Of a stretch of 64,000 bases of DNA, positions 39,380-58,771 are shown piece by piece (within the stretch, counting starts at the first letter, position 1; the number at the start of each line of letters is the position of its first letter). The translations under genes were made by a program, and so were the position numbers. Location of the stretch: assembly GCA_017302835.1 (NCBI GenBank), contig JAFLCC010000003.1, positions 62,001 to 126,000 of the forward strand, in the 5' to 3' direction. Source of the DNA: Deltaproteobacteria bacterium. Lineage in GTDB: Bacteria > Bdellovibrionota > Bdellovibrionia > Bdellovibrionales > Bdellovibrionaceae. The notes beneath the pieces are model-generated. The model was not told the DNA's origin. It saw only the letters and a list, made by a program, of their open reading frames with translations, and did no database searches.

Positions 39380-40040
39380 TTAACCCACTAAATACAGCAA
39401 AGGGAATAAGAAGATCCAAATTAAATCAACAATGTGCCAAAATATTCCCACTCCTTCGACAGGGGTAAAATAATTTTCTCCGAATTCGCCTTTTTGAGCT
39501 CGTAAAGCCAGCCAAACAATGAGGCCCATGCCAATAAGTACGTGAATTCCATGAAGACCCGTCATGCAGAAATAAAAACCATAATACATTCCCAAATTGG
39601 CAGCTTCAGCCCCAACATGAGCGACATCTAAATACCTACCTGGGAATAAACCATGGTGGAATTTACTGCTGTATTCATAGGCTTTGATACACATAAAGAT
39701 CACGCCACAGGCAACGGTTAACCAAAGTTTAAGAACTGCCTTGGATTTCTCATTTTTCTGTAAATGATGAATCGACATGGCCATAGTGTAAGAAGAGAAG
39801 ATTAAAACAAGGGTGTTCACAAAACCCAGACGCCAATCCAAATGGCTGGCACCTTCAGCAAACATTTTTGGATAAATAGCATGGAAAATAGAATAACCAA
39901 CAAAGAGGCCACCGAACATCAGAATTTCGGTAACCATAAATAACCATATCCCTTGCTTTGCGCTTTCAAATTGGTGCTCAGCATTTTTAAAATGATGAGC
40001 TAGGTGGGAATCGTGCGAATGTGAATGATTTGTGTCCGAA

Positions 40041-40054
<14 letters not shown>
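39380..40054 (-). CDS. ctaE: Cytochrome c oxidase subunit III
   Basis: Membrane subunit with seven helices in 224 residues. Typical segments: [36 protein letters not shown] and the late [20 protein letters not shown]. The start of the protein is His-rich ([13 protein letters not shown]), maybe metal-binding. Its ATG lies inside the last 14 bases of ctaD, so translation is coupled. Confidence 0.95.
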
Positions 40055-41651
<1,597 letters not shown>

Positions 41652-41666
41652 TTTCTGTCTCCCGAC

Positions 41667-42623
41667 TTATTTTAATGATTTAATATATTCAATGATCGCA
41701 CTCAATTCGTCTTCGCTCATTTGTCCCTGAAAGGAAGGCATGACTCCAGCCTTAAATCCACCTGCAATTTTAGCATTAGGGCTTAAAATAGATTCTCTGA
41801 CATAATTTTCATCGACACTTACTGTGGTGCCATCAGCAAGTTCTCTATTCGTTGCAAATTTTTGAAACAAGGTGGGTCCTACTTTGACTGTTTTGTCAGT
41901 GACAGAGTGGCAGCCAGCGCAGGCTTTAATTTGAAAAAGCTTTTCTCCCTTTTGCGCGATAGGGAGTGTGCTAAATTTAGATTCTTCTTCCAGCCAAGAA
42001 TCATACTCTGCTTGAGTGACCACTTGCAGTTTTCCAATCATTCCTGAGTGCTGAGTTCCGCAATACTCTGTACAGAATATATGAAAATCACCTAGCTTAT
42101 TGGCCTTAAATCCTACAGCCGTGTACCTGCCAGGAACCGCATCTTGTTTAATTCTAAAACTGGGAACATAAAAACTATGAATCACATCCGTTGAAGACAA
42201 AATAAGTTTAACATCTCTATTAATGGGCACCTTGACTAGGTTGGCAGTTTTGACTCCACTTTTATAATTAACTTCCCAAGACCACTGTTTTCCAGTGAGA
42301 TGTATTTCTAATGAATCTTTCGGAAAAGTTCTCATTTGATGATAGATGTGCCAGCCCCATGCAAAGACAATAAGGAAAATTACCAGCGGAATAAATGACC
42401 ACAGAAATTCCAAAAATGTATTGTGAGTGATATAGGCCGATTTAGCAGTCAAAGACTTTCTTTTGTATTTGAAGGTGAAAAAAATCATTCCACCAATCAG
42501 GATCACGCAAGCAATAAAGCTTGAGATCAATAAAAAACTGTACAAATTATCTACCTGACCAGCTTGATCTGTAGCTGCCGTTGGCATGAATTTACTTGCG
42601 TGAGCATATTGCATCCAGAACAT
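41667..42623 (-). CDS. ctaC: Cytochrome c oxidase subunit II with fused cytochrome c
   Basis: 318 residues. Two amino-terminal membrane helices, then the CuA domain with HSFYVPSFRIKQDAVPGR and FCTEYCGTQHSGM (two Cys, His, Met ligands), and at about 230 a cytochrome c domain with heme motif CAGCHSV and Met ligand in GVMPSFQGQMSEDEL. This fusion defines caa3 oxidases, which take electrons from soluble or membrane cytochrome c. Fifteen bases ahead of ctaD. Confidence 0.95.
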   Translation of the reverse strand: MFWMQYAHASKFMPTAATDQAGQVDNLYSFLLISSFIACVILIGGMIFFTFKYKRKSLTAKSAYITHNTFLEFLWSFIPLVIFLIVFAWGWHIYHQMRTFPKDSLEIHLTGKQWSWEVNYKSGVKTANLVKVPINRDVKLILSSTDVIHSFYVPSFRIKQDAVPGRYTAVGFKANKLGDFHIFCTEYCGTQHSGMIGKLQVVTQAEYDSWLEEESKFSTLPIAQKGEKLFQIKACAGCHSVTDKTVKVGPTLFQKFATNRELADGTTVSVDENYVRESILSPNAKIAGGFKAGVMPSFQGQMSEDELSAIIEYIKSLK

Positions 42624-42626
42624 TTA

Positions 42627-43499
42627 TTAACTCCTAACTGTACCTTCATTTTTTTTTATTCGTATCCAAAAAGGAAGTAACCAAATAAGCATAATTAAAA
42701 TAATAATGGCTCCACCGAGACGAACCATATTATAGGCATACAGAGCGTATTTGTTTGCCTGTGGATCGTAGTGAAAACAAAACAGGATAAATTTATCCAC
42801 CAAGGTCCCAATTTTTCCACCTGAAGCTTCATTCAAAGCCAGCTTGACATCCTTTGCCTCAAATTGAATTCCGCCAAGATATCTAGAAACAACACCTTCT
42901 GGAGTGGTTACAATCGCAGCAGAAGCATGAGACCATTCGTTTTCTTTTTCATTCCATTTATATTTAAAACCAACAGACGAAGTCAGTTGAGAGATCGTTT
43001 CTTGATTGGCCGTCAGGAAGTGCCAACCTTTTTCAGCCTCAGGACGATTATAGATAGCCATGTAGTTTTGCTTTTTTTTCAGAGCCAGATCGGTGCCTTC
43101 TTTAGGGTCAAAACTAATAGCTAAAACTTCAAACTTATCGCCAGCACTCCAATCAATTTCTTTAAGTCCATCGGTAAGCCCGTTTAAATGAAAATTGCAC
43201 AAACCTGGACAAGAATAATAGACTAAGGAAACAATGACTGGCTTTTGACGATGATAAAAAGAACCGAGGCTGACCTCATTATTATTTTCATCTTTAAATT
43301 TTAAAGATAAGTTTAACTGAGTCCCTAATTTTTGATCAATACCAACACCTTCAAGTTCTGAGGGTTTTTGTTCCGAGTGCTTGGGTAAGGGTTTTCCATC
43401 ATAGGCATTTGCAATAAGAGTCATTAAAAATAAAAACAAAAATAAAAGGGTGACTTTGATATCTATTTTGCTTTTTTGAAATTCGCCACTCACAACCAT
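42627..43499 (-). CDS. SCO1/SenC/PrrC family copper chaperone
   Basis: Delivers copper to the CuA site of subunit II. Membrane-anchored at both ends: amino helix (LLFLFLFLMTLIANAY) and carboxy helix (GGAIIILIMLIWLLPFW). The thioredoxin-fold centre has YYSCPGLCNFHLN (C-x-x-x-C) and SHASAAIVTTPEGVVSRYLG with the third copper ligand His. 290 residues. Directly upstream of ctaC (gap three bases), the expected partner. Confidence 0.92.
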   Translation of the reverse strand: MVVSGEFQKSKIDIKVTLLFLFLFLMTLIANAYDGKPLPKHSEQKPSELEGVGIDQKLGTQLNLSLKFKDENNNEVSLGSFYHRQKPVIVSLVYYSCPGLCNFHLNGLTDGLKEIDWSAGDKFEVLAISFDPKEGTDLALKKKQNYMAIYNRPEAEKGWHFLTANQETISQLTSSVGFKYKWNEKENEWSHASAAIVTTPEGVVSRYLGGIQFEAKDVKLALNEASGGKIGTLVDKFILFCFHYDPQANKYALYAYNMVRLGGAIIILIMLIWLLPFWIRIKKNEGTVRS

Positions 43500-43510
43500 T
43501 TAATATCCTA

Positions 43511-44047
43511 TTATTTTGCGGTCTTTGCAAATTCAGCTACTTTAGCTAAATCATCTTTTGATTTATTTTGTGTGATAGATTCAATGTAATGCAAAATAGC
43601 CCAGCGATCATGGACTTTTAAATGTTGAAAGGGAGCCATGGAACCACCTTTTATTCCATTTAATAGGACATTATAGTGAGAAATAATTCCTTCTCCTTGG
43701 GTCCATTGTCCTTCAACAATATTTCTTGGTTTAGGGTTCATTCCACCAGCAGAGGGACCATCGCCTTTACCTTCTAGGCCATGGCAAACAGAACAATTTG
43801 ATTTATAAGTTTTTGCGCCATATGTAACAATATCAGGAGTTGAAACCCAAGGTTCCGTCACGGCGGCCATGTTAAAAGCGGCAACAGCACCTTCTTTACT
43901 TGGCTGATTGGGGTCGACAACATGTTCGTCTAAATCAACACCGGGGTGGACGACAACGAGGTAAATAAAAAAGCAAAGAACAAAAGCCATTGCAAAGATA
44001 AAAGCAGTAAATCCACCTCTGTTATGAATATCAGAAGCATCTGACAT
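43511..44047 (-). CDS. Membrane-anchored cytochrome c
   Basis: 178 residues: one amino-terminal membrane helix (FTAFIFAMAFVLCFFIYLVV) and a cytochrome c domain with heme-binding SNCSVCHGLEGKGDGPSAGG at about 88; Met ligand probably in GSMAPFQHLK. It resembles the monoheme cytochrome subunits of alternative complex III, a possible electron donor to the caa3 oxidase. First gene of the operon; GGAG lies seven bases before ATG. Confidence 0.85.
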   Translation of the reverse strand: MSDASDIHNRGGFTAFIFAMAFVLCFFIYLVVVHPGVDLDEHVVDPNQPSKEGAVAAFNMAAVTEPWVSTPDIVTYGAKTYKSNCSVCHGLEGKGDGPSAGGMNPKPRNIVEGQWTQGEGIISHYNVLLNGIKGGSMAPFQHLKVHDRWAILHYIESITQNKSKDDLAKVAEFAKTAK

Positions 44048-44063
44048 AGGAACACTCCAAGTT

Positions 44064-44089
44064 TAGTTATATTATGTATATGATAACTA
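44064..44089. promoter_or_regulatory. Dyad upstream of the cytochrome oxidase operon
   Basis: TAGTTAT and ATAACTA form a 7-bp inverted repeat with a 12-base AT spacer, 17 bases before the first gene's start. On the coding strand the spacer includes ATAATAT, a possible -10. A regulator site is possible but not identified. Confidence 0.3.
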
Positions 44090-44180
44090 GCGTAAAAAAA
44101 AAACCATAGCAACCAAAAGTATTTGCTTGATTCACTTTTGCCGCAAACACTAAGAGCTTATTTTTTTACGATAAAAATAG

Positions 44181-44930
44181 TTACAATACGATCCCGCCAT
44201 CCACACTTAATACCGTACCATTAACATAGGAGGCTTGCTCTGAGGCCAAATAAAAACAGGCGTTGGCAATATCCTCAACTTCCCCCAATCTTAAAACAGG
44301 AACTTTCGCCGCCATTCCTTCAAGAACTTCTTTGGGCATGGCACTTGTCATTGCCGTTTTAATAAAACCAGGTGCGATGGCATTGACTGTAAATCCTTTT
44401 CTTCCTAATTCTTTACCAAGGGTTTTTGTAAAACCAATGACTCCAGCTTTTGACGCCGCATAATTGGCTTGGCCAAAATTTCCATACAAACCAACAACAC
44501 TTGAAATATTGATAATTCTTTTGTGGCTTGAATTGGCGTTAAATTTTTCCAGCAAGGACTTTGTTACATTGTAGAGTCCAGATAAATTTGTATTGATGAC
44601 GACATCCCAGTCCATGTCTGTCATTTTAACAAAGGACTTGTCCCTGGTGATGCCGGCATTATTAATGAGGACATCCACGTTCCAAGGCAATGAAGAAACG
44701 GCCTTTGCAATAGAATCTCTTTTCGTGACGTCTACTTGAGACAGGTTTAAGCGGCTTGAATAGCTCGCAAGCTCTTTTTCTGCCGCGTGAATAGCCTCGG
44801 TTGAGTAATCCCAAACGACAACCTTGGCACCAGCTTTTAGAAAAGAGGAAGTTAATTGAAAACCAATGCCTGCAGCTCCGCCTGTAACTAAAACGACCTT
44901 ATCCGTAAAATTGTAAGTTAAATTTGGCAT
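44181..44930 (-). CDS. Short-chain dehydrogenase/reductase (FabG/PhaB-like)
   Basis: NAD(P)-dependent reductase of 3-oxoacyl-thioesters, by resemblance. Motifs: VLVTGGAAGIGFQL (cofactor), DVLINNAGITRDKSFVKM, NISSVVGLYGNFGQANYAAS with Ser-Tyr-Lys triad completed by YAASKAG, and SYVNGTVLSVDGGIVL at the end. ATG 44930 chosen since GAGG is five bases upstream (249 residues). It could be 3-oxoacyl-ACP or acetoacetyl-CoA reductase; divergent from a KASIII-like and acyl-CoA ligase pair, which suggests a shared acyl pathway. Confidence 0.85.
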   Translation of the reverse strand: MPNLTYNFTDKVVLVTGGAAGIGFQLTSSFLKAGAKVVVWDYSTEAIHAAEKELASYSSRLNLSQVDVTKRDSIAKAVSSLPWNVDVLINNAGITRDKSFVKMTDMDWDVVINTNLSGLYNVTKSLLEKFNANSSHKRIINISSVVGLYGNFGQANYAASKAGVIGFTKTLGKELGRKGFTVNAIAPGFIKTAMTSAMPKEVLEGMAAKVPVLRLGEVEDIANACFYLASEQASYVNGTVLSVDGGIVL

Positions 44931-45085
44931 AATCACCTCTGTTAAAAGAATAATAAATTTCTCATTTTTCCATCCAAAACTATTTCACAGTTTCTAGCAC
45001 ATGACAATCCCTCTCTTTTAAAATCGTTGAGTTTATTCTGGGATAGGATTATTTTAGGGCCAGGATCCAGAGATCAAAGCAATTT

Positions 45086-45124
45086 GGTGAATCATTTAAG
45101 TGAATTATTTAGGTGAATCATTGC
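45086..45124 (+). repeat. Three 13-bp tandem repeats upstream of the KASIII-like gene
   Basis: GGTGAATCATTTA, AGTGAATTATTTA and GGTGAATCATTGC follow one another exactly at a 13-base period, ending 16 bases before the start codon. Could be multiple binding sites for a regulator; nothing else in 44937-45140 stands out. Confidence 0.6.
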
Positions 45125-45140
45125 TAAAAAAGGAAGACTT

Positions 45141-46169
45141 ATGAGGAATGCAACTATTGTTGGAACAGGAATGTATGCTCCCGATCGAGTTATTAAAAAT
45201 GAATATTTCAACGATCTTTATAAGAAAGATATAGATACCTTTTTAAGGACTCAGCGAAACATAACGGAGCGCCGGTGGATGGAGACGTCGCAACGAACAA
45301 GTGATTTGATTTTACCTGCAGCTGAAGAAGCAATGAAAAATGCGGGGATCACAGCTAAGGATTTAGATTTTATCATTGTTGCTACGGATACCCCCGATTA
45401 TTTATCCCCTTCAACAGCATCAGTCGTTTCGTTCCGGTTGGGAGCCGTGAATGCAGGTACTTTTGATTTGAATTCGGCCTGTGCTGGTTTCGTCACTGCC
45501 TTGGATGTGGGAAATAAATTTATTAAATCGGATACTCAATTTAAAAATATCTTAGTTGTCGGCGCCTATGCCATGAGTAAATGGCTCAACTTTGATGATT
45601 ATAAAATCGCTTCTTTATTTGCTGATGGAGCTGGGGCTGCGGTTCTCAGAGCGACAGAGAATAGCATGCCTGAGGGGCCAGGGTCGGAAAAAGCAAGTGG
45701 ATTTTTAACTTCTGTTTTTCTTACCCAGGGACAATACCATGATTATATGGGACTCTACGCTGGTGGAAGTTATAAGCCCGTGTCCCATGAGGTTATCGAA
45801 AATAAGGAACACTTATTGGCATTTCCAAAACGAATTCCACCAGAGACCAATGGCATTTATTGGCCAAAATTAACGCATTTAATTTTAGATAAAATAGGTA
45901 AAAAACCAACGGACGTAAATCATTTTTTTATCACTCAGTTTAATGTGCAAAGTATTTACGAAACGTTAGATAAGCTGAATTTGCCCCACGAGAAAGCTCA
46001 TTATATTATGGATAAATATGGTTATACAGGTAGTGCTTCTGTAGGAATGTGTTTAGCTGATGCCGTCAGAAAACATAAGTTGAAGAAAAAGGATCTCGTG
46101 ATCATGCTTGGCTCAGGTGGCGGGATGTCCATGGCAGCTTTGGCTATGGAATGGGGATATGATACTTAA
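45141..46169 (+). CDS. 3-oxoacyl-ACP synthase III-like protein with altered active site
   Basis: 342 residues of thiolase fold similar to FabH. The nucleophile Cys is present in DLNSACAGFVTALDVG. The usual His (HQAN motif) is replaced: the aligned segment reads HFFITQFNVQSI, with Thr where His should be. The usual Asn of GNTSAAS is also replaced (GYTGSASVG). The carboxy end LGSGGGMSMAALAMEW is family-typical. Loss of His and Asn argues against normal decarboxylative condensation; acyl transfer or another thioester reaction is possible. Eleven bases before an acyl-CoA ligase gene. Confidence 0.85.
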   Translation: MRNATIVGTGMYAPDRVIKNEYFNDLYKKDIDTFLRTQRNITERRWMETSQRTSDLILPAAEEAMKNAGITAKDLDFIIVATDTPDYLSPSTASVVSFRLGAVNAGTFDLNSACAGFVTALDVGNKFIKSDTQFKNILVVGAYAMSKWLNFDDYKIASLFADGAGAAVLRATENSMPEGPGSEKASGFLTSVFLTQGQYHDYMGLYAGGSYKPVSHEVIENKEHLLAFPKRIPPETNGIYWPKLTHLILDKIGKKPTDVNHFFITQFNVQSIYETLDKLNLPHEKAHYIMDKYGYTGSASVGMCLADAVRKHKLKKKDLVIMLGSGGGMSMAALAMEWGYDT

Positions 46170-46180
46170 GGGGGCAGTTT

Positions 46181-47755
46181 ATGAAAATGGAATTGGACTG
46201 GTTAAAAAAATGGAGTCAATATGCGCCTCACTCTGTGGCGATTAAAGATGGCGAAACAGGCAGGGAATATACCTACAAAAATGCCTATGAGCTCTCGATG
46301 CGTGGGGCTCATGTTTTAGAAAAAAAATATCAAATTCAGAGAAATGATCGGGTGGCCATTTTATCTACGAATGAGGTCGAGTATTATTTTTTATTTTTTG
46401 CCCTGCAACGGCTGGGGGCCATCATGGTGCCAGTCAATTTTAGATTAACTCAACGAGAAGTCGAACATATCGTTACAGATTGTTCTCCTAAACTCGTGAT
46501 CTATCAAGAGGCCTATGAAGCGGCAGTAAAAAATCTTCCGACGAAGACTTCTTCGGGAGACTTGCAAACTTGTACATTATCAGCAATTTCCAGGGAGCTA
46601 GGATCTCTGGAGGCGAACTCTTCGGGTTATATGGAAGGTGTTCCTAAGAAAGAATTTGTTTCTGATCCGGAAGATGCCGCCATGATATTGTACACCTCGG
46701 GAACGACAGGAGCGCCCAAGGGAGCCTTGATTTCTTTCAAAATGTTATTTTGGAACTCCATAAACACAAGCCTTCGGTTAAATATTTCACAAAAAGATTG
46801 TACGATTATATTTCTTCCTTTTTTTCATACCGGTGGTTGGAATGTGCTCACGAACCCCTTTGTTCATCGAGGTGCTAAAATTGTGCTCTTGAAGAAGTTC
46901 GATGCGGATCAGATTTTAAATTTAGCGGCCAAAGAAAAAGCCACTATTTTATTTGGAGTTCCCACAACTATGGACATGATGGCAAGATCTGCCGCATTTA
47001 AAGATACGGATCTTTCAAATCTTCGCTATGCTATCGTCGGTGGAGAACCCATGCCCATTGACTTGATTCATACCTGGCATCGCAAAGGAATCCCGATAAG
47101 ACAAGGTTATGGTCTAACAGAATTTGGTCCTAATGTATTTTCTTTAAATGAAGAAGATGCCATTCGAAAAATTGGTTCTATTGGTTTTACCAATTTTTAT
47201 ACCGAAGCCAAGGTTGTGGATGGTGACGGCAAAGAACTTGGTCCCAATGAAATTGGTGAGTTAGTCCTGCAAGGACCCATGTGCATGAATGGATATTGGA
47301 AAAATGAAAAGGCAACTAAAGAGACCCTCAAAGAGGGTTGGCTCTATACAGGGGATTTAGTTAAAAAAGATGAGGAAGGGTATTACTATGTTGTCGGCAG
47401 AAAAAAAGACATGTACAAATCTGGCGGCGAAAATGTCTACCCTACCGAAATAGAACAGGTCTTGCGCCATTACGAAGGCATCAAGGAAGTCGCCGTCCTT
47501 GGAGTTCCAGATACCAAATGGGGAGAAGTCGGCAAGGCTTTTATAGTTAAAGAAGCTTCATCTAAAGAATCAGAAGCCAAAGAGGTTTCTTCTCTAGATG
47601 AAGCGAAGTTATATTCTTATTGCTTACAAAACCTCGCCAAATTTAAAATTCCAAAGCACTTTGTATTTGTCGATGAGCTCCCCAAGGGAGAGTCAGGCAA
47701 GATCCTGAAGCGAAAAATTCTGGAGCTGTACCCTCATAAGGAGACCTCTTTATAG
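46181..47755 (+). CDS. Long-chain fatty acid-CoA ligase-like AMP-forming enzyme
   Basis: Activates a carboxylic acid through an acyl-adenylate. 524 residues with MILYTSGTTGAPKGALISF (phosphate loop), FFHTGGWNVLTNPF, GYGLTEFGPNVFSL, YTGDLVKKDEEGYYYVVGRK and the hinge RKKDMYKSGGENVYPTEIE; catalytic Lys in LPKGESGKILKRKI. Acid chain length cannot be read off. Start has GGGGGCAG six bases upstream. Paired with the KASIII-like gene, it may supply that protein's acyl-CoA. Confidence 0.9.
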   Translation: MKMELDWLKKWSQYAPHSVAIKDGETGREYTYKNAYELSMRGAHVLEKKYQIQRNDRVAILSTNEVEYYFLFFALQRLGAIMVPVNFRLTQREVEHIVTDCSPKLVIYQEAYEAAVKNLPTKTSSGDLQTCTLSAISRELGSLEANSSGYMEGVPKKEFVSDPEDAAMILYTSGTTGAPKGALISFKMLFWNSINTSLRLNISQKDCTIIFLPFFHTGGWNVLTNPFVHRGAKIVLLKKFDADQILNLAAKEKATILFGVPTTMDMMARSAAFKDTDLSNLRYAIVGGEPMPIDLIHTWHRKGIPIRQGYGLTEFGPNVFSLNEEDAIRKIGSIGFTNFYTEAKVVDGDGKELGPNEIGELVLQGPMCMNGYWKNEKATKETLKEGWLYTGDLVKKDEEGYYYVVGRKKDMYKSGGENVYPTEIEQVLRHYEGIKEVAVLGVPDTKWGEVGKAFIVKEASSKESEAKEVSSLDEAKLYSYCLQNLAKFKIPKHFVFVDELPKGESGKILKRKILELYPHKETSL

Positions 47756-47774
47756 AATCTACTTTTTTTGTCAC

Positions 47775-48818
47775 TTAATTGGGATTGCAGTTTGTAAAGA
47801 AAATGTCTGCGTCTACGATAAAAAATGGTGCGAGCTTCATTCCAATAAGAGCGGGCATAAAAATTCCACCGCTATTGGTGGAAAAGCCCATCGTTATGTA
47901 AAGCATATAAAGAGCTTGACCCTCTGCCATATTGTGAGTCTGTTTTAAATAATTTTCCATGTATTTTGCTTTTTTGGCAAAAACTTGATAAAATTTAGAT
48001 TCAGAGAGACACATGTGCTCGCGGATTTCGTTACGTTTTTCAGGAGAGAGATTGCGAACCACATCTAAATACTCACTATATGGTCGATTTTCATTTATAC
48101 CTTTTGGGAATTGTGAAAAAATATCTTTATATTTAGATAGTACAGATTCTACTCGAACGGGAGTTTCATAAATACATTCAGGGGTGTTCGTCACAGTTAC
48201 GGCACTTGTTACGATACCGTTTTTCAAGATAACATTAATGAGGCAAGATTTTGTTTTGGTCATAGTTTCAGCAGTCAGCAGGAAGTGAGTTTCATCTGCT
48301 GAATTGCTGACTTGTTCAATTTTTTCCACGCTAAAATTCAATCCTTGAGTTTTTAACACTTTTGGTGATTTGGTAATCGCGATAAGATCTTTGATAGGTT
48401 TTACCTCACCCACCTTTTCCTGTTCGCAGCCCGAGATCACTTTTGTATTAGTGACTACAACTAATTTAGAAGGAGTAGAGTGAGTGTTCCAAACAGTGGC
48501 ATCTAAAACACATTTTGTAGTGCTGGTAGCGGATTTAGTTTCTAATCTGTAGTGAAATCCTTTTGAATCAATGAGAATTAAACTTAATTTTTGGACTTCG
48601 ATTTTTTCGTCACCGAAAGTGACTCCAAGAATTCGGTTGATCTCATAATTTTTGGCAATAGCGAGAGTGTTTTCATGGCCAAAGGAGGCACCAGGCTTTG
48701 GTGCACCACCACTCACTCGTTGGGCATAGGAATAAAAAGAAATAGCCAATAAAAAAAATACATTTAGAAATAGAGATATTGGTAGGGATATTGGTCTAGA
48801 AAGGTTTTTTTTAGTCAT
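47775..48818 (-). CDS. Secreted protein of unknown function, 347 aa
   Basis: I start at ATG 48818, with AAGGA seven bases upstream, so that a signal peptide follows (LPISLFLNVFFLLAISFYSYAQ). The open frame extends 31 codons further upstream without support. After the signal come beta-rich stretches with single Cys (TTKCVLDATVWNTHSTPSKL, TKSCLINVILKNGIVTSAVT), which look like two related modules, each about 85 residues, and a helical end. Divergent from a TIGR02147 regulator, which may control it. No family recognised. Confidence 0.7.
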   Translation of the reverse strand: MTKKNLSRPISLPISLFLNVFFLLAISFYSYAQRVSGGAPKPGASFGHENTLAIAKNYEINRILGVTFGDEKIEVQKLSLILIDSKGFHYRLETKSATSTTKCVLDATVWNTHSTPSKLVVVTNTKVISGCEQEKVGEVKPIKDLIAITKSPKVLKTQGLNFSVEKIEQVSNSADETHFLLTAETMTKTKSCLINVILKNGIVTSAVTVTNTPECIYETPVRVESVLSKYKDIFSQFPKGINENRPYSEYLDVVRNLSPEKRNEIREHMCLSESKFYQVFAKKAKYMENYLKQTHNMAEGQALYMLYITMGFSTNSGGIFMPALIGMKLAPFFIVDADIFFTNCNPN

Positions 48819-48964
48819 TGTGAAATCCTTGTTAAGGGTTATGTTCAAATTCGGCACCAATTTAGCCTTTCGTATTATTTTTCGCTCCTGTTTAAAAGTA
48901 AAAAAGCTCAAATAGTTTTTACTTTTGGTAAAGTATTTTTGTAAATATACGAAAAGACGATTAT

Positions 48965-49793: not shown

Positions 49794-50815
49794 ATGTTAT
49801 TAAAAGAGTTCGAAGATAGTGGAAAAAAAATCTTATTATCATTGATGAAATTCAAAAATTGCCAGAGCTATTGGATGTCGTTCATTTATTGATAGAAAAA
49901 AATAAGTCTTATCGTTTTATTCTTACGGGAAGTAGTGCTAGGAAATTAAAAAAGCAGGGGCAAAATTTATTAGGTGGTCGGGCCTATCCATTATTCCTGC
50001 ATCCAATCACATCGAAAGAATTTTTATCTAGAGGAAACTCACCAACAGACAAAAGAGTAAATTTTGATTCTTTAGTTCAAATAGGTGGCCTGCCGAGTGT
50101 TCTCACAGCCAACTCTCCCCAACGGGTTCTTAAGGCCTATGTGGGAATTTATTTACAAGAAGAAATCAAAGCCGAGGGGTATGCCAGAAATCTTTCTGAT
50201 TTCTCGAAATTTTTAGAAGTAGCTGCGCTCACCAATAGTGAGCAGTTGGATTTTGCTGGCGTTGCCAGAGATGTGCAATTATCGCCCAGAACCGTGGCTG
50301 CGTATTATTCAATATTGCAAGATACCTTACTTGGATATTTATTAGAATCGTATAAAGAAACAAAATCGAGAAAAGCAGTCATGACTCCTAAGTTTTACTA
50401 CTTTGATGTGGGGGTTTGTAACTTTCTTTCGGGGCGAGAAAATCTGCCGAAGGGAACTCCCGAATATGGGAAGGCTCTGGAGCATTTTGTTTTTACTGAA
50501 CTCATTGCTTATAGGGATTATCATGAGGAGGCATTTGAAATTTTTTATTGGCGTTCGACATCGCAATTTGAGGTTGATTTTTTACTTCAATTCAAATCAA
50601 AAAAACTCATAGGAATTGAAGTCAAAGGCACCAGCCACATCGATAGCGATGATTTGAAAGGTTTTAAAGCTTTTGAGGAAGACATAAAACTCACAAAAAA
50701 AATTTTTGTATGTAATGAAAAACATCAAAGAACGATTCAAAACGAATATCAGGTGATGCCGTTGCCTTTTTTTTGCCAGCAGCTATGGGCTGGGGAAATA
50801 GTTCAGGCGACATAA
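49794..50815 (+). pseudogene. Truncated and frameshifted AAA ATPase (AAA_14/DUF4143 family)
   Basis: The first frame gives MLLKEFEDSGKK, and after a run of eight As (49823-49830) the protein continues in the -1 frame with NLIIIDEIQKLPELLDVVHL (Walker B) then FILTGSSARKLKKQG (sensor 1). The carboxy DUF4143 part is whole: LLGYLLESYKETKSRKAVMT, KFYYFDVGVCNFLSG, EIFYWRSTSQFEVDFLL and KLIGIEVKGT (nuclease-like fold). The amino-terminal roughly 60 residues with Walker A are missing, so no ATP binding is expected even if the frame were restored. Starts 17 bases after the TIGR02147 gene's stop. Confidence 0.8.
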
Positions 50816-52676: not shown

Positions 52677-52788
52677 CCTGCCAACAGCACAATTTTATCG
52701 GTGAGTTTCTCAAAACGAGACACGTAAAACGCCGATTATTTCATTCCTAAAGTAAAGTTAGCTATCTAGGTTGCCGATCAATATCCCG

Positions 52789-54165
52789 ATGATTATTCAC
52801 ATCTTTGTATTTCTATCACTTCTAAGTTTGGACTTGCGTGCTGACGTGGATTTGAAAAATGGAAACTTTTTCTATTCATGGATTGATGCCGAAATATCAT
52901 CGAAGAATTTCTTTTGGCAAATGCAACGCAGCTACAACAGCCGTGTCAATCGCGTCGGCTATTTTGGACAAGGCTGGTGTTCGCCTTTGGAAACAAAGCT
53001 CACTCGTTCGGTCGAACCTAGTAAAACTATTGAGATTCAGAACTGTGGCAGTGGTGAAATCGTTGTTTACCAACCTGACGGCTCCGAGTGGAAATCAGGC
53101 GACCAAGTCATCTCTTTTAACGACGATTTCTACATATTGAAAGTCAAGGGCATCACTCAATTACAGTTCAATAAAAATGGCAGTTTGGACGCGTTCAGGT
53201 TGCGCGATGAAAAAGCGAAACTGAAATATGAAGATGACAAATTAAATCGTATCGAAACGATTGCTGGTAATTTCTCGTTCGTGTTTGATGAATACGGAAA
53301 AGTGACAGAAATCAATTCCGGAACTGCAAACATAGCCAAATACGCTTATCAAGGACAAAATCTTACTGACGTCACCAATGCCTGGGGAAATCAATTTTCT
53401 TATCAGTACGATATATTTGGCAATATGACTCTAGCAAAATGGCCAGACAAAACATTCTTGAAATTAGGCTACGACACCGGTCACGATTGGATTACAAGTT
53501 TAACCGATCGCGACGGTTGCGTTGAAAATTACGGTTACGACTCTAAAAAAATGAGCGATGGAACGAAGGTTACCTCAACTGTCCACCGCATATGTAAAAA
53601 GAAACATTTCGACAAGAAAACAACTGAAATCGTTTTTGATAAACAAAACAAATTAAAAAACATAAAAAAATCTGTGGGTACTACTTGGAAACAAATCGAA
53701 TACACTGATTTCGGAAAGCCGAAAAAAATCAATGATAGTTTTGGCCTCGCCCAAGTGTTTGACTACGATAAAAATGGAAATTTGACCCTTAAAAAATCTG
53801 GTTCTGAAAAAACTCACTATGTTTTAAATGAAAAGAAGCAAATCACTCAAGTGAACACAGACAAAGTAAAATTAAAACTAGAATACGATGAACGGGGTCG
53901 CACAACACGAGTGATTGCTAGCTATGAGTCGACATCGAATGACCTGGCCATCTCTTATGTCGACTTTACTGAGAAATTAAAAACGCTTGAGCTGAAAGGC
54001 GCTGGGAAAATTAGCTATAGCTATGACAATGACGGCTCAGTTACTGAATCCAGCACACAGCCTACAAAAACAAATGACATTGAATTAAAAACTACTGTTA
54101 ACCGAGTCTATGGCATTTACACAACCCTAACTGATGAAACCGCCGTTTTTGGAGGTATAGACTGA
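52789..54165 (+). CDS. RHS/YD-repeat secreted protein
   Basis: 458 residues from ATG 52789 (a TTG at 52771 is an alternative; neither has a good ribosome site). Signal peptide IIHIFVFLSLLSLDLRA. Then FFWQMQRSYNSRVNRVGYFG and GWCSPLETKLTRS, as at the start of RHS proteins, and a row of YD repeats: YAYQGQNLTDVTNAWGNQFS, FSYQYDIFGNMTLAKW, FDYDKNGNLTLKK, LEYDERGRTTRVIAS and YSYDNDGSVTESS. RHS repeats form a shell around a cargo. There is no conserved core end or toxin domain; it stops short (typical RHS are above 1000), so it may work with the two genes translationally coupled behind it. Confidence 0.85.
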   Translation: MIIHIFVFLSLLSLDLRADVDLKNGNFFYSWIDAEISSKNFFWQMQRSYNSRVNRVGYFGQGWCSPLETKLTRSVEPSKTIEIQNCGSGEIVVYQPDGSEWKSGDQVISFNDDFYILKVKGITQLQFNKNGSLDAFRLRDEKAKLKYEDDKLNRIETIAGNFSFVFDEYGKVTEINSGTANIAKYAYQGQNLTDVTNAWGNQFSYQYDIFGNMTLAKWPDKTFLKLGYDTGHDWITSLTDRDGCVENYGYDSKKMSDGTKVTSTVHRICKKKHFDKKTTEIVFDKQNKLKNIKKSVGTTWKQIEYTDFGKPKKINDSFGLAQVFDYDKNGNLTLKKSGSEKTHYVLNEKKQITQVNTDKVKLKLEYDERGRTTRVIASYESTSNDLAISYVDFTEKLKTLELKGAGKISYSYDNDGSVTESSTQPTKTNDIELKTTVNRVYGIYTTLTDETAVFGGID

Positions 54166-54422
54166 AAACCTTTTTAACGATCACCATTTCAATGATTTTA
54201 ACTTTTTCAAGTATTGCCTATTCAGAAACTAAAAGGCCTGACCCTAACTTAAATAAAGCAAGAAACTTATCGACCGTCATTGCCCCAGGCTGTACTGAGT
54301 TTGTGCACCCTTGCTCTGGGCAAGCCGCGGCAGCATCACTCAACGCAGTCACGACACCTTCGAGCAAAACTGTCATAAAACCGCCAGCCGCTGCCGCCGC
54401 ATCAGGAGCTAGTACGAAGTGA
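54162..54422 (+). CDS. Small secreted Ala-rich protein, apparent CTG start
   Basis: 86 residues if translation starts at CTG 54162, which has a perfect GGAGG six bases upstream and overlaps the previous stop (CTGA). That start yields a full signal peptide (MKTFLTITISMILTFSSIAY followed by SETK); starting at the first ATG (54192) would cut the signal in half and has no site. The mature part has two Cys (APGCTEFVHPCSG) and an Ala/Pro-rich tail (KPPAAAAASGAS). Its stop overlaps the GTG of the following gene. Function unknown; it may be a linker or partner of its neighbours. Confidence 0.7.
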   Translation: MKTFLTITISMILTFSSIAYSETKRPDPNLNKARNLSTVIAPGCTEFVHPCSGQAAAASLNAVTTPSSKTVIKPPAAAAASGASTK

Positions 54423-57400
54423 TTTATTCCTATCGTCTTATCTCTTTTTTAATCGTGTTTTCGAGCAGTGTCTTCGCTGCAGGACCTTACTGTCCTTCGG
54501 CACCTGCAAATTGTAATTTCAAAAACGTAGAAGAGGGCCTTAAAGAACTCAAAGAAGGGCGCTTCTTTAATTTACTTAAAAGCCCAGACTCTTTTTGTAA
54601 GGGTCATCTTACGCAAGGGGTTAAGCCAGAGGCAGTAATGCCTGAGCTTATGGCCGACCCAAGATTTACTCTCTATGTAACACCTCAGATTTCACAGTGC
54701 TGGAAAGAAGGCGGTGCTAATTCCACAAAATTAGAAACATTGAGTCGCTACGCTTATATTCAAAAACGATTTGATGATAACGCTGACAATTTACTTGATT
54801 ACCAAGTATTTGCTGACGCTGTCCTTGGTAACGAGCCGTTGGCTGGGGTCGACTGCAAACAAGAGGCACCAGAGTTAGTCGGACTTGTGAGCAAGTGCCA
54901 AGATCTAAAAGCGAATTGCAAAAAATCAGACATGTCCCAAACACTGGCACAGAGTTTTATTGATGAATATAAATCTCAACATATAAAAAGTATCGAAGGC
55001 CGTTTTAAAGAGGCCAAAAATATTTGGGAAGACTGCTCACCCCGTCAGAAATCAGGTAAGAATTGTAAAGATGCTAAAAAAGAAATGGGTCAAACCGCAT
55101 TCAGACTTCAAGTTTTTTATGCAAATTACCAGTGGGCACAAGAAGACAAATTTCTAGAATTGATTGGTAAACGAGGATTCGAAGACGTAAATTTAGTGAC
55201 TAAAGCACTTAAGACTCAAGTAGCAGAAAATAGAAGGAATGTAGCCACGCAATTAAAGGAACTAACGACGGCCTCGCAATGTTTACTAAGAAATAATTGC
55301 GACTCGGATAAAGTTAATGATGTTCTAGAGCGCACTAAACCTTTAGCAGAACTAGATTTTTTAAAAAAAGGCGCTTCAAAAGAATTAAATCAAAGTCGCG
55401 CCGCTGTCGCGCAGTTCGTATCGTATAATAACTGCCTCGACGACATGGGCGAATCACAAAGAAAAACTTCAAAGACACTATGGTCATCAGGAGTTGGCGC
55501 CGTGGGTGCCGTTGTCACGATGGGTGGTAGTTTAGTTGTCACGGGTTTGACGGCCGCTGGGCGTGTTGCTATGGGTGCCGCCGTTGTTGGTAGCCGTGCC
55601 GCTTCGGTCGGCAAAGCCGCTTTGTTACTTGGGCAAGCCGTCGATGGAACCGTCGCAGTCCAATCGGTGCACGAAGCCTCTGGCCACTGCGGTAGCAAAT
55701 CGACAGGTTATTTTAAACCTACAGAAAAAGCGGCCGGCCCACAAGCCTGCGGGATTCCAACCGCAGGGCAAATGAATTTCAAAAAAGAGTACGATGGTTG
55801 TGTTCTCGATGTTGTCCTGGGTGCTGCTGGCGGCGCGAGTCTGGTCGTGGGCTTAAAGAACATGTCCAATGCACGACAACTTGCTGAAGCGGAACAAGCA
55901 TCCGGCGTCGCTAAAGCAACTACTACGGGTGAAAATGCAACCAAGGGAATGGGTCCGATCGAGTCGATCTCTCCCACAACAGGTGCAGAAAAAGCTACGC
56001 CATCTAAATTAGTCAGCGATGGCGACTATATCTCTATTCAGTCTGCCGGAAATGAAAGAAAATTTGCGATGGTTTTGCAAACTCAAGAAAGCGCAACTGG
56101 CACACTTTATCAAATCGCAACAAAATCAACAGACGGTAAAGTCACTAAAAAATGGATTGGTCAAAAAGAATTTGAGGGCCTAAAACCCAGCCTCAGTGAA
56201 GCATCAAGGACTTCATTCGGTTCAGCAAATATCAATAAAGATTTAGCTCAATCCGCCATTCAAAATATTTCTCGCGGTTCGCCACCTGAAAAAGTTCGCG
56301 CGGTCGTTGGAAAATTAAATGATGCCTATGATGGAGGAGAAGCCCGACTGAAAATTGCAAGCAAGTTGATGGGTAGAGATCTTAACGAGGTCGAGAAAAA
56401 ATGGATCATGGCTGCACACAATACCCACACTGACACGGCCTATGGCGATATTGGCTCTGTCAAAGTGCGCGATAAAATTAAAGCCGGCGAAGGTCGCCCA
56501 AGATCTATCGATAGCAAGCAAACACGGATGCTGATGGAATATGGAATTACAGGCACAGAAACTGGATACAGGGTTTCCCTTCGCGCTCCAGTACCTAATA
56601 GTAAATTGAACGGCACCGATCACTACACGCTTGTTAATGGGGAGAAATCGCTCAAAGTACAGATCACCCAATCTGTGGTTCAAGAAGGGGTCATCTACCA
56701 TAAGGTAGAAGTTCCGGGTTACCCAGGTCAGTACCGAGCGATGACTGAAGATCAGCTGTTAACGATGATCAAACCAAAAACCGAATCGATGGCTGTCAGA
56801 GTTGAATCGGCCGTTGCGAAAGTGGACGATGTCCCCACTCCGTCCGTTCAAACGCCACCAGTTCAAACGCCACCAGTTCAAACGCCGAAAACGACTGTGC
56901 GTCCAGAACCAAAATCACTGAATCCAAGCGCAGCCAACTTCATCGAAGCTCTTAATCAAGCTCAGATGAAAACCGTAGTTAACACAAATCGCGTGGAAAA
57001 ACTAAATGGAAACTCGGTGACCAAACCCCAGCGCATGCGCGAACGTATCGGCATCGAACTAGGTATCACCGATGCCAATCGCCGTGCTGCGATTGCCTAC
57101 TCGCCCGTTGCAGATTCAAAAACAATGACCAATGCGTTACAAAAGGCACTGGGCGCCGATTCCAATGTCGACATTAAACAATTACGTCAAACGATGAGCT
57201 TTAATCCTGCGAGCGGCTATGTCTTGCGAAGCGAGTTTGTAAATGCTGCAAAGTTCGTTGAAGAAATTAATGCCAAAGGCGGAGTAAAAGCATTGGACAA
57301 ATTACCTCTTTCCGCGAGCGAGCGCGAGGCTTTAAACGCCGTGATGGCCAGGGCCCCTGCTTATGCTAGCTATGTCGATCCAAAAGTTCGTCCACTGGGC

Positions 57401-58771
57401 CAACTCAAAATCAGAAACTCACCGGTGGAAGCAACTAACCCAAATCGAGACGTGGTCGTTAAAGATGCTCAAGGACAAACAGTACAAGGTAGAGAAACGA
57501 TTCGACAACTGGGATCTGATGGAGAAAGCCTTTCGACTGTGAAATATACAAAACCGGATGGAACAGAATCTTCAATCACCGTGCGCACGTCTGAAACTAC
57601 GGATGTGGCCGAAGCTCAACGATTGCAAAGCTTTGATCGCGGAATCACTGAACGCGCTAACGCCAATCGCGCCGCACACATCTCAGCTAGCGAAAAATCG
57701 GGTTACGTAAATCCTCATGGTGTGCGTCGTTCTGAAATCGCCCCCAACCGCGAAGTTAATGTCCAAATCAATACACCCGATGGTGTTAAAGATGTCGAAG
57801 CCGTTGTGCAAGGTGCTCCTTACAAAAGTGTTAACGGTACACAAGAAGTTCAAGTTCGATATCAAGATGGCGTTCATAATGGCAAACCAGTTATTCGATA
57901 CACATCGGTTGCCATTGATAAAATTGAACACGTAAAACCCCCGGTCGTAACAGCACCCACTAACGTAGTCGCCGTTGAATTCAAACCCATTGACGAAGTC
58001 ATCCGAAAACCTGCAGACAGAGCCTTGGACGCTAGTTCTTACGAGGGCCAAGCCTTTAGACGAACGGCAGATTCCGAAGGCGCCGATATCCTTTTAGATC
58101 GACGTATTGGAGAACGCGCCCATGTCGAGGCCTTAAGGCAAGGGATCAAAGAGGATTATCTGCTTTTAAGAGAAGCCATAGTCAAAGACAGGAATGAAAT
58201 GCAGGTTTCGCAAATTGGAAAAACAGACGATGCTCGATTTAATCCACGCGTGTTCTACGCGCATCAATCTAGTGAATACCATGCCGCAGTTAGCGCACCA
58301 AAAGGTAGCCCCGCAGCAGCCGGCAAAGAGGATGCGGAACTCGCTTACAAAGGCCGGATGGCCTATGATGCTGAAGGAAATGTAACAAGATCCAACTCGG
58401 CTCGTGATGTTGCCCTTAGAACAGCGCGCACTCGTGGTATGTCTCCGGAAGAAATTGTTAAATTAGAAAAATGGATGGATGCTTACGACCAGGCGGCCCC
58501 TCGCGTACGCGCTGTCGAGCGTGCCGAAGCTGCCCAAAAAGAATTCGAAGCTGTAAAGCAAACTCTGCAAAAGGCTTTGAAAAATGACTCGGGAATACCG
58601 CCGATGGTTCAGACCACGTTTGAAAAAATGGCGCAAAGTCTGAATGATCTTCAATTAACGCCCGAACAAAAAAAGGCGTCCGAAGTTGCACTTAAAAAAA
58701 TCAGATGCGCTCGACCAGAGTGGAAAATCAAGGACAACCAATTCCCGACATTTAATTTGAAGTGCGATTAG
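54419..58771 (+). CDS. Giant secreted multi-domain protein, 1450 aa
   Basis: Starts at GTG overlapping the previous TGA. Signal peptide RLISFLIVFSSSVFA. A Cys-rich helical part (about 25-350) is followed by Gly/Ala-rich hydrophobic segments (350-420 and 459-482), then at least three related beta modules of about 60 residues (about 531-590, 716-785, 1111-1174), each with the pattern basic strand, long strand, K-P or I-K-P exit (GLKPS, TMIKPK, HVKPP), separated by helical regions. At about 647, ASKLMGRDLNEVEKKWIMAA begins a helical motif ending MLMEYGITG. A Pro-Val-Gln-Thr repeat lies near 810. Carboxy end is charged and helical. GC-rich coding unlike the flanks. I cannot assign a function; surface assembly or effector delivery with the RHS protein is a guess. 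Confidence 0.75.
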   Translation: MIYSYRLISFLIVFSSSVFAAGPYCPSAPANCNFKNVEEGLKELKEGRFFNLLKSPDSFCKGHLTQGVKPEAVMPELMADPRFTLYVTPQISQCWKEGGANSTKLETLSRYAYIQKRFDDNADNLLDYQVFADAVLGNEPLAGVDCKQEAPELVGLVSKCQDLKANCKKSDMSQTLAQSFIDEYKSQHIKSIEGRFKEAKNIWEDCSPRQKSGKNCKDAKKEMGQTAFRLQVFYANYQWAQEDKFLELIGKRGFEDVNLVTKALKTQVAENRRNVATQLKELTTASQCLLRNNCDSDKVNDVLERTKPLAELDFLKKGASKELNQSRAAVAQFVSYNNCLDDMGESQRKTSKTLWSSGVGAVGAVVTMGGSLVVTGLTAAGRVAMGAAVVGSRAASVGKAALLLGQAVDGTVAVQSVHEASGHCGSKSTGYFKPTEKAAGPQACGIPTAGQMNFKKEYDGCVLDVVLGAAGGASLVVGLKNMSNARQLAEAEQASGVAKATTTGENATKGMGPIESISPTTGAEKATPSKLVSDGDYISIQSAGNERKFAMVLQTQESATGTLYQIATKSTDGKVTKKWIGQKEFEGLKPSLSEASRTSFGSANINKDLAQSAIQNISRGSPPEKVRAVVGKLNDAYDGGEARLKIASKLMGRDLNEVEKKWIMAAHNTHTDTAYGDIGSVKVRDKIKAGEGRPRSIDSKQTRMLMEYGITGTETGYRVSLRAPVPNSKLNGTDHYTLVNGEKSLKVQITQSVVQEGVIYHKVEVPGYPGQYRAMTEDQLLTMIKPKTESMAVRVESAVAKVDDVPTPSVQTPPVQTPPVQTPKTTVRPEPKSLNPSAANFIEALNQAQMKTVVNTNRVEKLNGNSVTKPQRMRERIGIELGITDANRRAAIAYSPVADSKTMTNALQKALGADSNVDIKQLRQTMSFNPASGYVLRSEFVNAAKFVEEINAKGGVKALDKLPLSASEREALNAVMARAPAYASYVDPKVRPLGQLKIRNSPVEATNPNRDVVVKDAQGQTVQGRETIRQLGSDGESLSTVKYTKPDGTESSITVRTSETTDVAEAQRLQSFDRGITERANANRAAHISASEKSGYVNPHGVRRSEIAPNREVNVQINTPDGVKDVEAVVQGAPYKSVNGTQEVQVRYQDGVHNGKPVIRYTSVAIDKIEHVKPPVVTAPTNVVAVEFKPIDEVIRKPADRALDASSYEGQAFRRTADSEGADILLDRRIGERAHVEALRQGIKEDYLLLREAIVKDRNEMQVSQIGKTDDARFNPRVFYAHQSSEYHAAVSAPKGSPAAAGKEDAELAYKGRMAYDAEGNVTRSNSARDVALRTARTRGMSPEEIVKLEKWMDAYDQAAPRVRAVERAEAAQKEFEAVKQTLQKALKNDSGIPPMVQTTFEKMAQSLNDLQLTPEQKKASEVALKKIRCARPEWKIKDNQFPTFNLKCD
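56846..56890 (+). repeat. 15-bp tandem repeat inside the giant gene
   Basis: Three units of GTTCAAACGCCACCA (the last ends CGAAA) code for V-Q-T-P-P in series, a flexible linker. Sequence nearly identical between units, so copy number may vary between strains. Confidence 0.8.

Follow-up and report, generated by a model that had tools for sequence, protein, structure and literature searches.

What a KASIII-like protein does when its nucleophilic cysteine is kept and the catalytic histidine and asparagine are replaced, and what role an adjacent acyl-CoA ligase plays, is the question raised by this locus. The two genes lie in a 64,000-nucleotide stretch of bdellovibrionaceal DNA, referred to here as the window. 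The KASIII-like gene (45141-46169, plus strand) is an intact open reading frame (ORF) that encodes 342 amino acids with Cys114, Thr265 and Tyr295 at the catalytic positions, and it is followed after 11 bases, on the same strand, by a gene for an AMP-forming acyl-CoA ligase (46181-47755, plus strand; 524 amino acids) with intact core motifs. An SDR gene (44181-44936, minus strand; 251 amino acids) forms a divergent pair with the KASIII-like gene; its product has intact catalytic N/S/Y/K residues and is of the NAD type, with an aspartate (Asp43) closing the second strand. The intergenic stretch that separates the SDR gene from the KASIII-ligase pair (44937-45140, no strand assigned) was included in a promoter scan of positions 44000-48000, which was uninformative (13 sites, 10.2 expected from shuffles), and no Rfam match was found over the whole window. 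The cytochrome c oxidase block at 39380-44047 (minus strand; COX3, COX1, COX2, SCO-like and cytochrome c-like genes, named from sequence reading) adjoins in 13 of the 17 loci having about 8 kb or more upstream, and is probably a syntenic neighbour outside the pathway. Other ORFs recorded in the window are one of 378 residues (47775-48911), convergent with the ligase gene and without a Pfam match; an AAA_14/DUF4143 ORF (49859-50815) with a TTG start and the front of its AAA domain missing, probably a truncated gene; and one of 1450 residues without a Pfam match (54419-58771), which directly follows a DUF6531/RHS-repeat ORF (52771-54165) and possibly forms a single RHS-type locus with it.

The KASIII-like protein has the fold of FabH. 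It matches the Pfam models ACP_syn_III (PF08545; 82.6 bits, cut-off 24) and ACP_syn_III_C (PF08541; 87.7 bits, cut-off 26.6), and its AlphaFold model (pLDDT 87.6) superposes on E. coli FabH over 318 residues with a Z score of 45.1 and an rmsd of 1.7 (VIA-align). Its scores fall below the NCBIfam cut-offs for FabH itself (TIGR00747, 192.5 versus 292.1; NF006829, 226.9 versus 249). An earlier note on this DNA had read the cysteine as kept (SACAG), the histidine of HQAN as threonine (TQFN) and the asparagine of GNTS as tyrosine (GYTGS). This assignment was confirmed by aligning the protein with solved FabHs and the genome-encoded FabH of E. coli K-12: C114, T265 and Y295 fall on Cys112, His244 and Asn274, respectively. 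Q266, N268 and T296 align with E. coli FabH Gln245, Asn247 and Thr275, and the GGG loop is shared as well. Residues 174-183 (window 45660-45689) form a segment of about 10 extra residues that is a gap in nearly all relatives and is modelled with a pLDDT below 50. The possibility that this protein is the housekeeping FabH was rejected, as a canonical C/H/N FabH is encoded on another contig of the same genome.

The replacement is not confined to the window. Cys, Thr and Tyr (C-T-Y) were invariant in all 71 aligned relatives (55 distinct sequences), which come from Bdellovibrionota, Saprospiraceae, Gammaproteobacteria and one Chloroflexota plasmid, compared with C/H/N in 29 of 29 FabHs (28 distinct; 28 rows from a phylum-wide search ranked by similarity plus the FabH of the window genome). 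The same three residues were always present in a first alignment of 53 rows (the window protein and relatives of 49-81% identity), which contains duplicates across collections and comes to 40 distinct sequences without L040, and also in a second Saprospiraceae paralogue (L069/L081) outside the 71 rows, of which L081 was omitted from the neighbourhood tally too. L040, a metagenome-assembled genome, was removed from the 71-row set; its KASIII gene (L040:5405-6397) is interrupted by one in-frame stop, at codon 127, due to sequencing error or decay, and its neighbours look intact. The earlier note had named another histidine and asparagine at the catalytic positions as the refuting outcome; a search of the 71-row alignment found none, nor was any histidine invariant, the nearest being H287 (kept in 68 of 71 rows). 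As judged from these alignments, the Cys-His-Asn triad has been lost throughout the subfamily, although a His or Asn might reach the site from elsewhere in the folded protein. The substitutions are thus conserved in orthologues, a point that the earlier note had wished to see checked. Further residues, namely Y143, P233, N237, W241, M290, G297 and S325, are invariant specifically in this clade. A tree of E. coli FabH, the 29 FabHs and 33 of the 71 C-T-Y rows was computed by a quick method, SH-aLRT being the only support measure. Even without the two diagnostic columns, a single branch (SH-aLRT 100) separated the C-T-Y proteins from the FabHs; L063 formed a long branch. In the phylum-wide search, two C-T-Y genes scored 457 and 471 bits, and all other matches listed scored at most 291 bits. 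These comparisons establish the C-T-Y proteins as a discrete and conserved KASIII subfamily and not a local oddity. A pseudogene or lineage-specific decay was rejected because C/T/Y is invariant across 55 distinct sequences. Four members (L060, L061, L062 and L092) make up a sub-branch with CACS/CACA-x-FP around the cysteine; the ligase is absent beside their KASIII genes in the stretches examined, and their function is possibly different.

The residues with which FabH holds its substrates have changed as well. W32, R36, T37 and R151 of E. coli FabH (CoA contacts) are replaced by F, Q, R and Y in the window protein, and K214, R249 and K256 (ACP patch) by E, Q and D; each of the seven either is missing from the clade or occurs in a minority of its rows (12 of 71 for W32). 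By E. coli numbering, position F87 has become Ser or Thr in every one of the 71 rows, and in most rows the residues at K155, K230 and R231 are basic. The roles ascribed to these contact residues are partly general background on FabH and partly taken from PMC3734052. According to the available text of that paper, basic-to-acidic exchanges in the FabH funnel strongly affect CoA and ACP binding, and a small residue 87 goes with a long-chain acyl preference. These data suggest that in C-T-Y proteins ACP docking would be lost, the CoA site changed and the acyl pocket roomier. Since the FabH CoA contacts are gone, the use of CoA by C-T-Y proteins is not assured, and the ligase's acyl-CoA, which the earlier note had favoured as the source for acyl transfer or hydrolysis, is a putative donor.

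How far the altered active site constrains the reaction can be gauged from related enzymes. The earlier note had held that such a protein cannot use the normal decarboxylation mechanism. In the available text of PMC4807248, FabH requires both His and Asn for decarboxylation, which bears the claim out in part; the wording was nevertheless too strong, as loss of the His lowers FabH activity only about 10-fold. The same text reports that cysteine acylation in PqsBC H269A (76.6 versus 86.9 per second) is independent of the histidine. Given PqsBC acylation without His and the role of His and Asn in FabH decarboxylation, a C-T-Y protein should be able to load Cys114 and should not decarboxylate in the normal way. 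Non-condensing acyl chemistry is thus likely, and because Tyr and Thr replace Asn and His, the next step would more probably be a transfer to or from oxygen, or to CoA, than C-C chemistry. PqsC and PqsB share with the C-T-Y proteins the KASIII fold and an incomplete triad; however, PqsC keeps the His and has Val for Asn, and PqsB is without all three residues, whereas the C-T-Y protein keeps Cys, has the other two replaced and is a single chain. One might also consider a biosynthetic enzyme that still condenses, with or without decarboxylation, by means of an unusual oxyanion hole, because Thr and Tyr are able to act as hydrogen-bond donors and the FabH His mutant retains about a tenth of its activity (PMC4807248, available text). 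But His and Asn have gone together with the ACP patch (R249, K214 and K256), and we regard this explanation as very improbable. Another candidate is a biosynthetic acyltransferase that uses an activated acyl group to acylate a lipid or small molecule at a hydroxyl. Here the retained Cys and the missing condensing residues fit, and ChlB3 and CerJ are precedents for a KASIII fold that serves acyl transfer without condensation (PMC9573744, available text). Compared by description, however, CerJ and ChlB3 need Cys-His-Asp, CerJ H295N is inactive (same text), and the C-T-Y clade has no invariant His.

The neighbouring genes provide a second line of evidence. Among 39 distinct Bdellovibrionota loci, the ligase gene directly follows the KASIII gene in 35, so that the ligase partnership proposed in the earlier note was borne out as a steady one; the four exceptions are L022, where the stretch ends 257 bases downstream, and L045, L046 and L050, which differ. 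The suggestion that the SDR belongs to the same set also held, as an SDR gene stands beside the KASIII gene in 34 of the 39 loci. One or both of two alpha/beta hydrolases were found in 35 of the 39. The full gene order is ligase, KASIII, divergent SDR, secreted hydrolase and second hydrolase, with the hydrolase genes of relatives sitting between the cytochrome oxidase block and the SDR gene. These hydrolases, as well as the transport genes that occur at the same locus in Saprospiraceae, were absent from the earlier note. The Saprospiraceae clusters comprise KASIII and ligase, SDR, a TonB receptor, a sodium/solute symporter and a hydrolase, and a protein of about 475 amino acids recurs in them (L078:1019-2431, L079:13693-15189, L082:7566-8996 and L052:2-760), the L082 copy of which had no match in Pfam or NCBIfam. 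On the Chloroflexota plasmid, the set consists of SDR, KASIII, a CoA-transferase replacing the ligase, a thiolase with a Zn-ribbon/OB partner and a hydrolase. The identity of the partner as a ligase thus stands for most loci but not for the Chloroflexota member, and because of this exception "acyl-activating enzyme" seems, on gene content, the better description. The module is not universal in the clade: no ligase lies beside the KASIII gene in two Saprospiraceae paralogues and several gammaproteobacterial copies, and the distant members L072 and L074-L076 have neither ligase nor SDR within 2-9 kb on each side.

As enzyme classes, KASIII, alpha/beta hydrolase, AMP-ligase and SDR recall OleABCD, and the same four classes occur in most relatives, so the proteins could be distant cousins of OleA, OleB, OleC and OleD that make a beta-lactone or an olefin. 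The 25 families listed for each protein included no OleC or OleD model. OleA needs His and Asn for non-decarboxylative condensation. Since OleA must condense two acyl-CoAs, the lack of both residues at the aligned C-T-Y positions speaks against such a function. Furthermore, the SDR and the ligase fit classical FabG-type and acyl-CoA ligase models best, the Chloroflexota set has a CoA-transferase in place of the ligase, and neither hydrolase was matched in the window genome at the limits used. Kinship with the oleABCD genes described in PMC7064751 (available text) is therefore a distinctly poor prospect.

The accompanying enzymes were also informative about the probable substrate. In SDRs, NAD preference is marked by an acidic residue where the second strand ends, and this position is acidic in 45 of 45 SDR rows (44 Asp, 1 Glu); the best solved match of the SDR is a (3R)-hydroxyacyl-CoA dehydrogenase. 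In the secreted hydrolase, Ser, Asp and His are invariant, and this protein was found in 24 of 32 KAS-positive versus 1 of 27 KAS-negative genomes, this exception being 54% complete. A PHB depolymerase is the best solved match of the Saprospiraceae hydrolase (E 1.8e-18) and ranks third for the secreted Bdellovibrionota hydrolase (E 1.3e-6). The import genes, the secreted hydrolases and the NAD-type SDR point towards catabolism, which counts against the biosynthetic acyltransferase resembling CerJ; taking this together with the missing histidine, we consider that enzyme quite unlikely.

Polyhydroxyalkanoate (PHA) depolymerases may point in a similar direction. In L082 (Saprospiraceae), a secreted type-1 PHA depolymerase (279 bits, cut-off 150) is encoded between the symporter and the receptor, and in L055 (Gammaproteobacteria) KASIII, ligase, hydrolase and TonB receptor are accompanied by a type-2-like PHA depolymerase that scores under the cut-off (218 bits versus 280). 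Type-2 PHA depolymerases over the cut-off were present in 7 of 9 KAS-positive versus 1 of 8 KAS-negative genomes (p 0.015; 17 genomes chosen by hand among those with known KAS status), including the window genome, where they lie on other contigs and not at the KASIII locus. With type 1 and type 2 combined, the same 17 hand-picked genomes gave 8 of 9 versus 4 of 8 (p 0.13). Type 1 was rejected as a predictor in Bdellovibrionota, where it showed no association with the KASIII gene (12 of 32 KAS-positive, 6 of 27 KAS-negative; p 0.26); in Bacteroidia it occurred in 4 of 5 KAS-positive genomes versus 95 of 290 (p 0.045), with five positives only. The statistics are modest, and PHA is thus the best lead for the substrate and not a result. 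No KASIII-like protein is known to form part of the PHA (PHB) degradation route, and a literature search found none there; among the open-licence papers listed, we recognised none that deals with a Cys-Thr-Tyr KASIII or with such a gene set. In Bdellovibrio bacteriovorus HD100, prey PHB is broken down by the scl-PHA depolymerase Bd2637, and monomers and oligomers are set free when the prey attacked is filled with PHA (PMC4834554, available text), so that a downstream hydroxyacid route would be expected there.

Overall, the explanation that we tentatively prefer, at somewhat less than an even chance, is that the locus is a catabolic module for hydroxyacids, most likely 3-hydroxyalkanoates derived from esters, in which the C-T-Y protein does not condense but either transfers acyl groups via its Cys or thiolyses esters. 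We consider the hydroxyalkanoate setting plausible. Against the explanation weigh the replaced CoA contacts, the missing match to either neighbouring hydrolase in the window genome, the distant members that have neither ligase nor SDR beside them, and the type-1 and combined depolymerase counts. The hydrolases would yield hydroxyacids or short oligomers, the ligase would form the CoA thioester of the hydroxyacid, the SDR would oxidise the 3-hydroxyacyl-CoA, and ordinary thiolases would carry out the final steps. An acyl group would pass through Cys114 of the C-T-Y protein, either on its way between CoA and a hydroxyl or as an oligomer ester is cleaved in a CoA-dependent manner, and the alcohol would be dealt with by Tyr295 and Thr265. 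A narrower version, which we hold to be improbable, makes it a CoA-dependent thiolytic enzyme that breaks the ester of an activated hydroxyalkanoate oligomer via Cys114, with Tyr295 as the acid for the leaving alcohol and CoA as the acceptor of the acyl group; if true, one ATP per bond would be saved relative to hydrolysis and re-activation.

A different catabolic scheme assigns the C-C cleavage to the C-T-Y protein itself. Ligase, SDR and KASIII would then be a three-step mini beta-oxidation of 3-hydroxyacids, with Thr and Tyr forming a new oxyanion hole for thiolysis of 3-ketoacyl-CoA. The order of the chemistry matches a ligase, an NAD-type SDR and a thiolase-fold enzyme, and in most loci a thiolase gene was not noticed beside the cluster. 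However, at least one ordinary thiolase was found in 59 of 59 genomes, with three in that of the window, so a C-T-Y protein need not fill this role and its candidacy as the missing one was set aside as unlikely. In L083 and L092, moreover, thiolase genes lie beside the C-T-Y gene, and the known members of the condensing-enzyme superfamily that act on C-C bonds keep the His. We therefore regard this retro-Claisen scheme as unlikely.

The condensing-enzyme superfamily is a model of how one fold yields many reactions, and to our knowledge nearly all of its members keep the His. In this clade Cys-Thr-Tyr has become fixed across four phyla while the partner set is intact, which amounts to a natural experiment on what the fold can do once the decarboxylation pair is gone. 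If the hydroxyalkanoate reading is true, the C-T-Y protein and its partners would represent a putative step through which bacteria, predators among them, exploit polyesters that other cells have stored.
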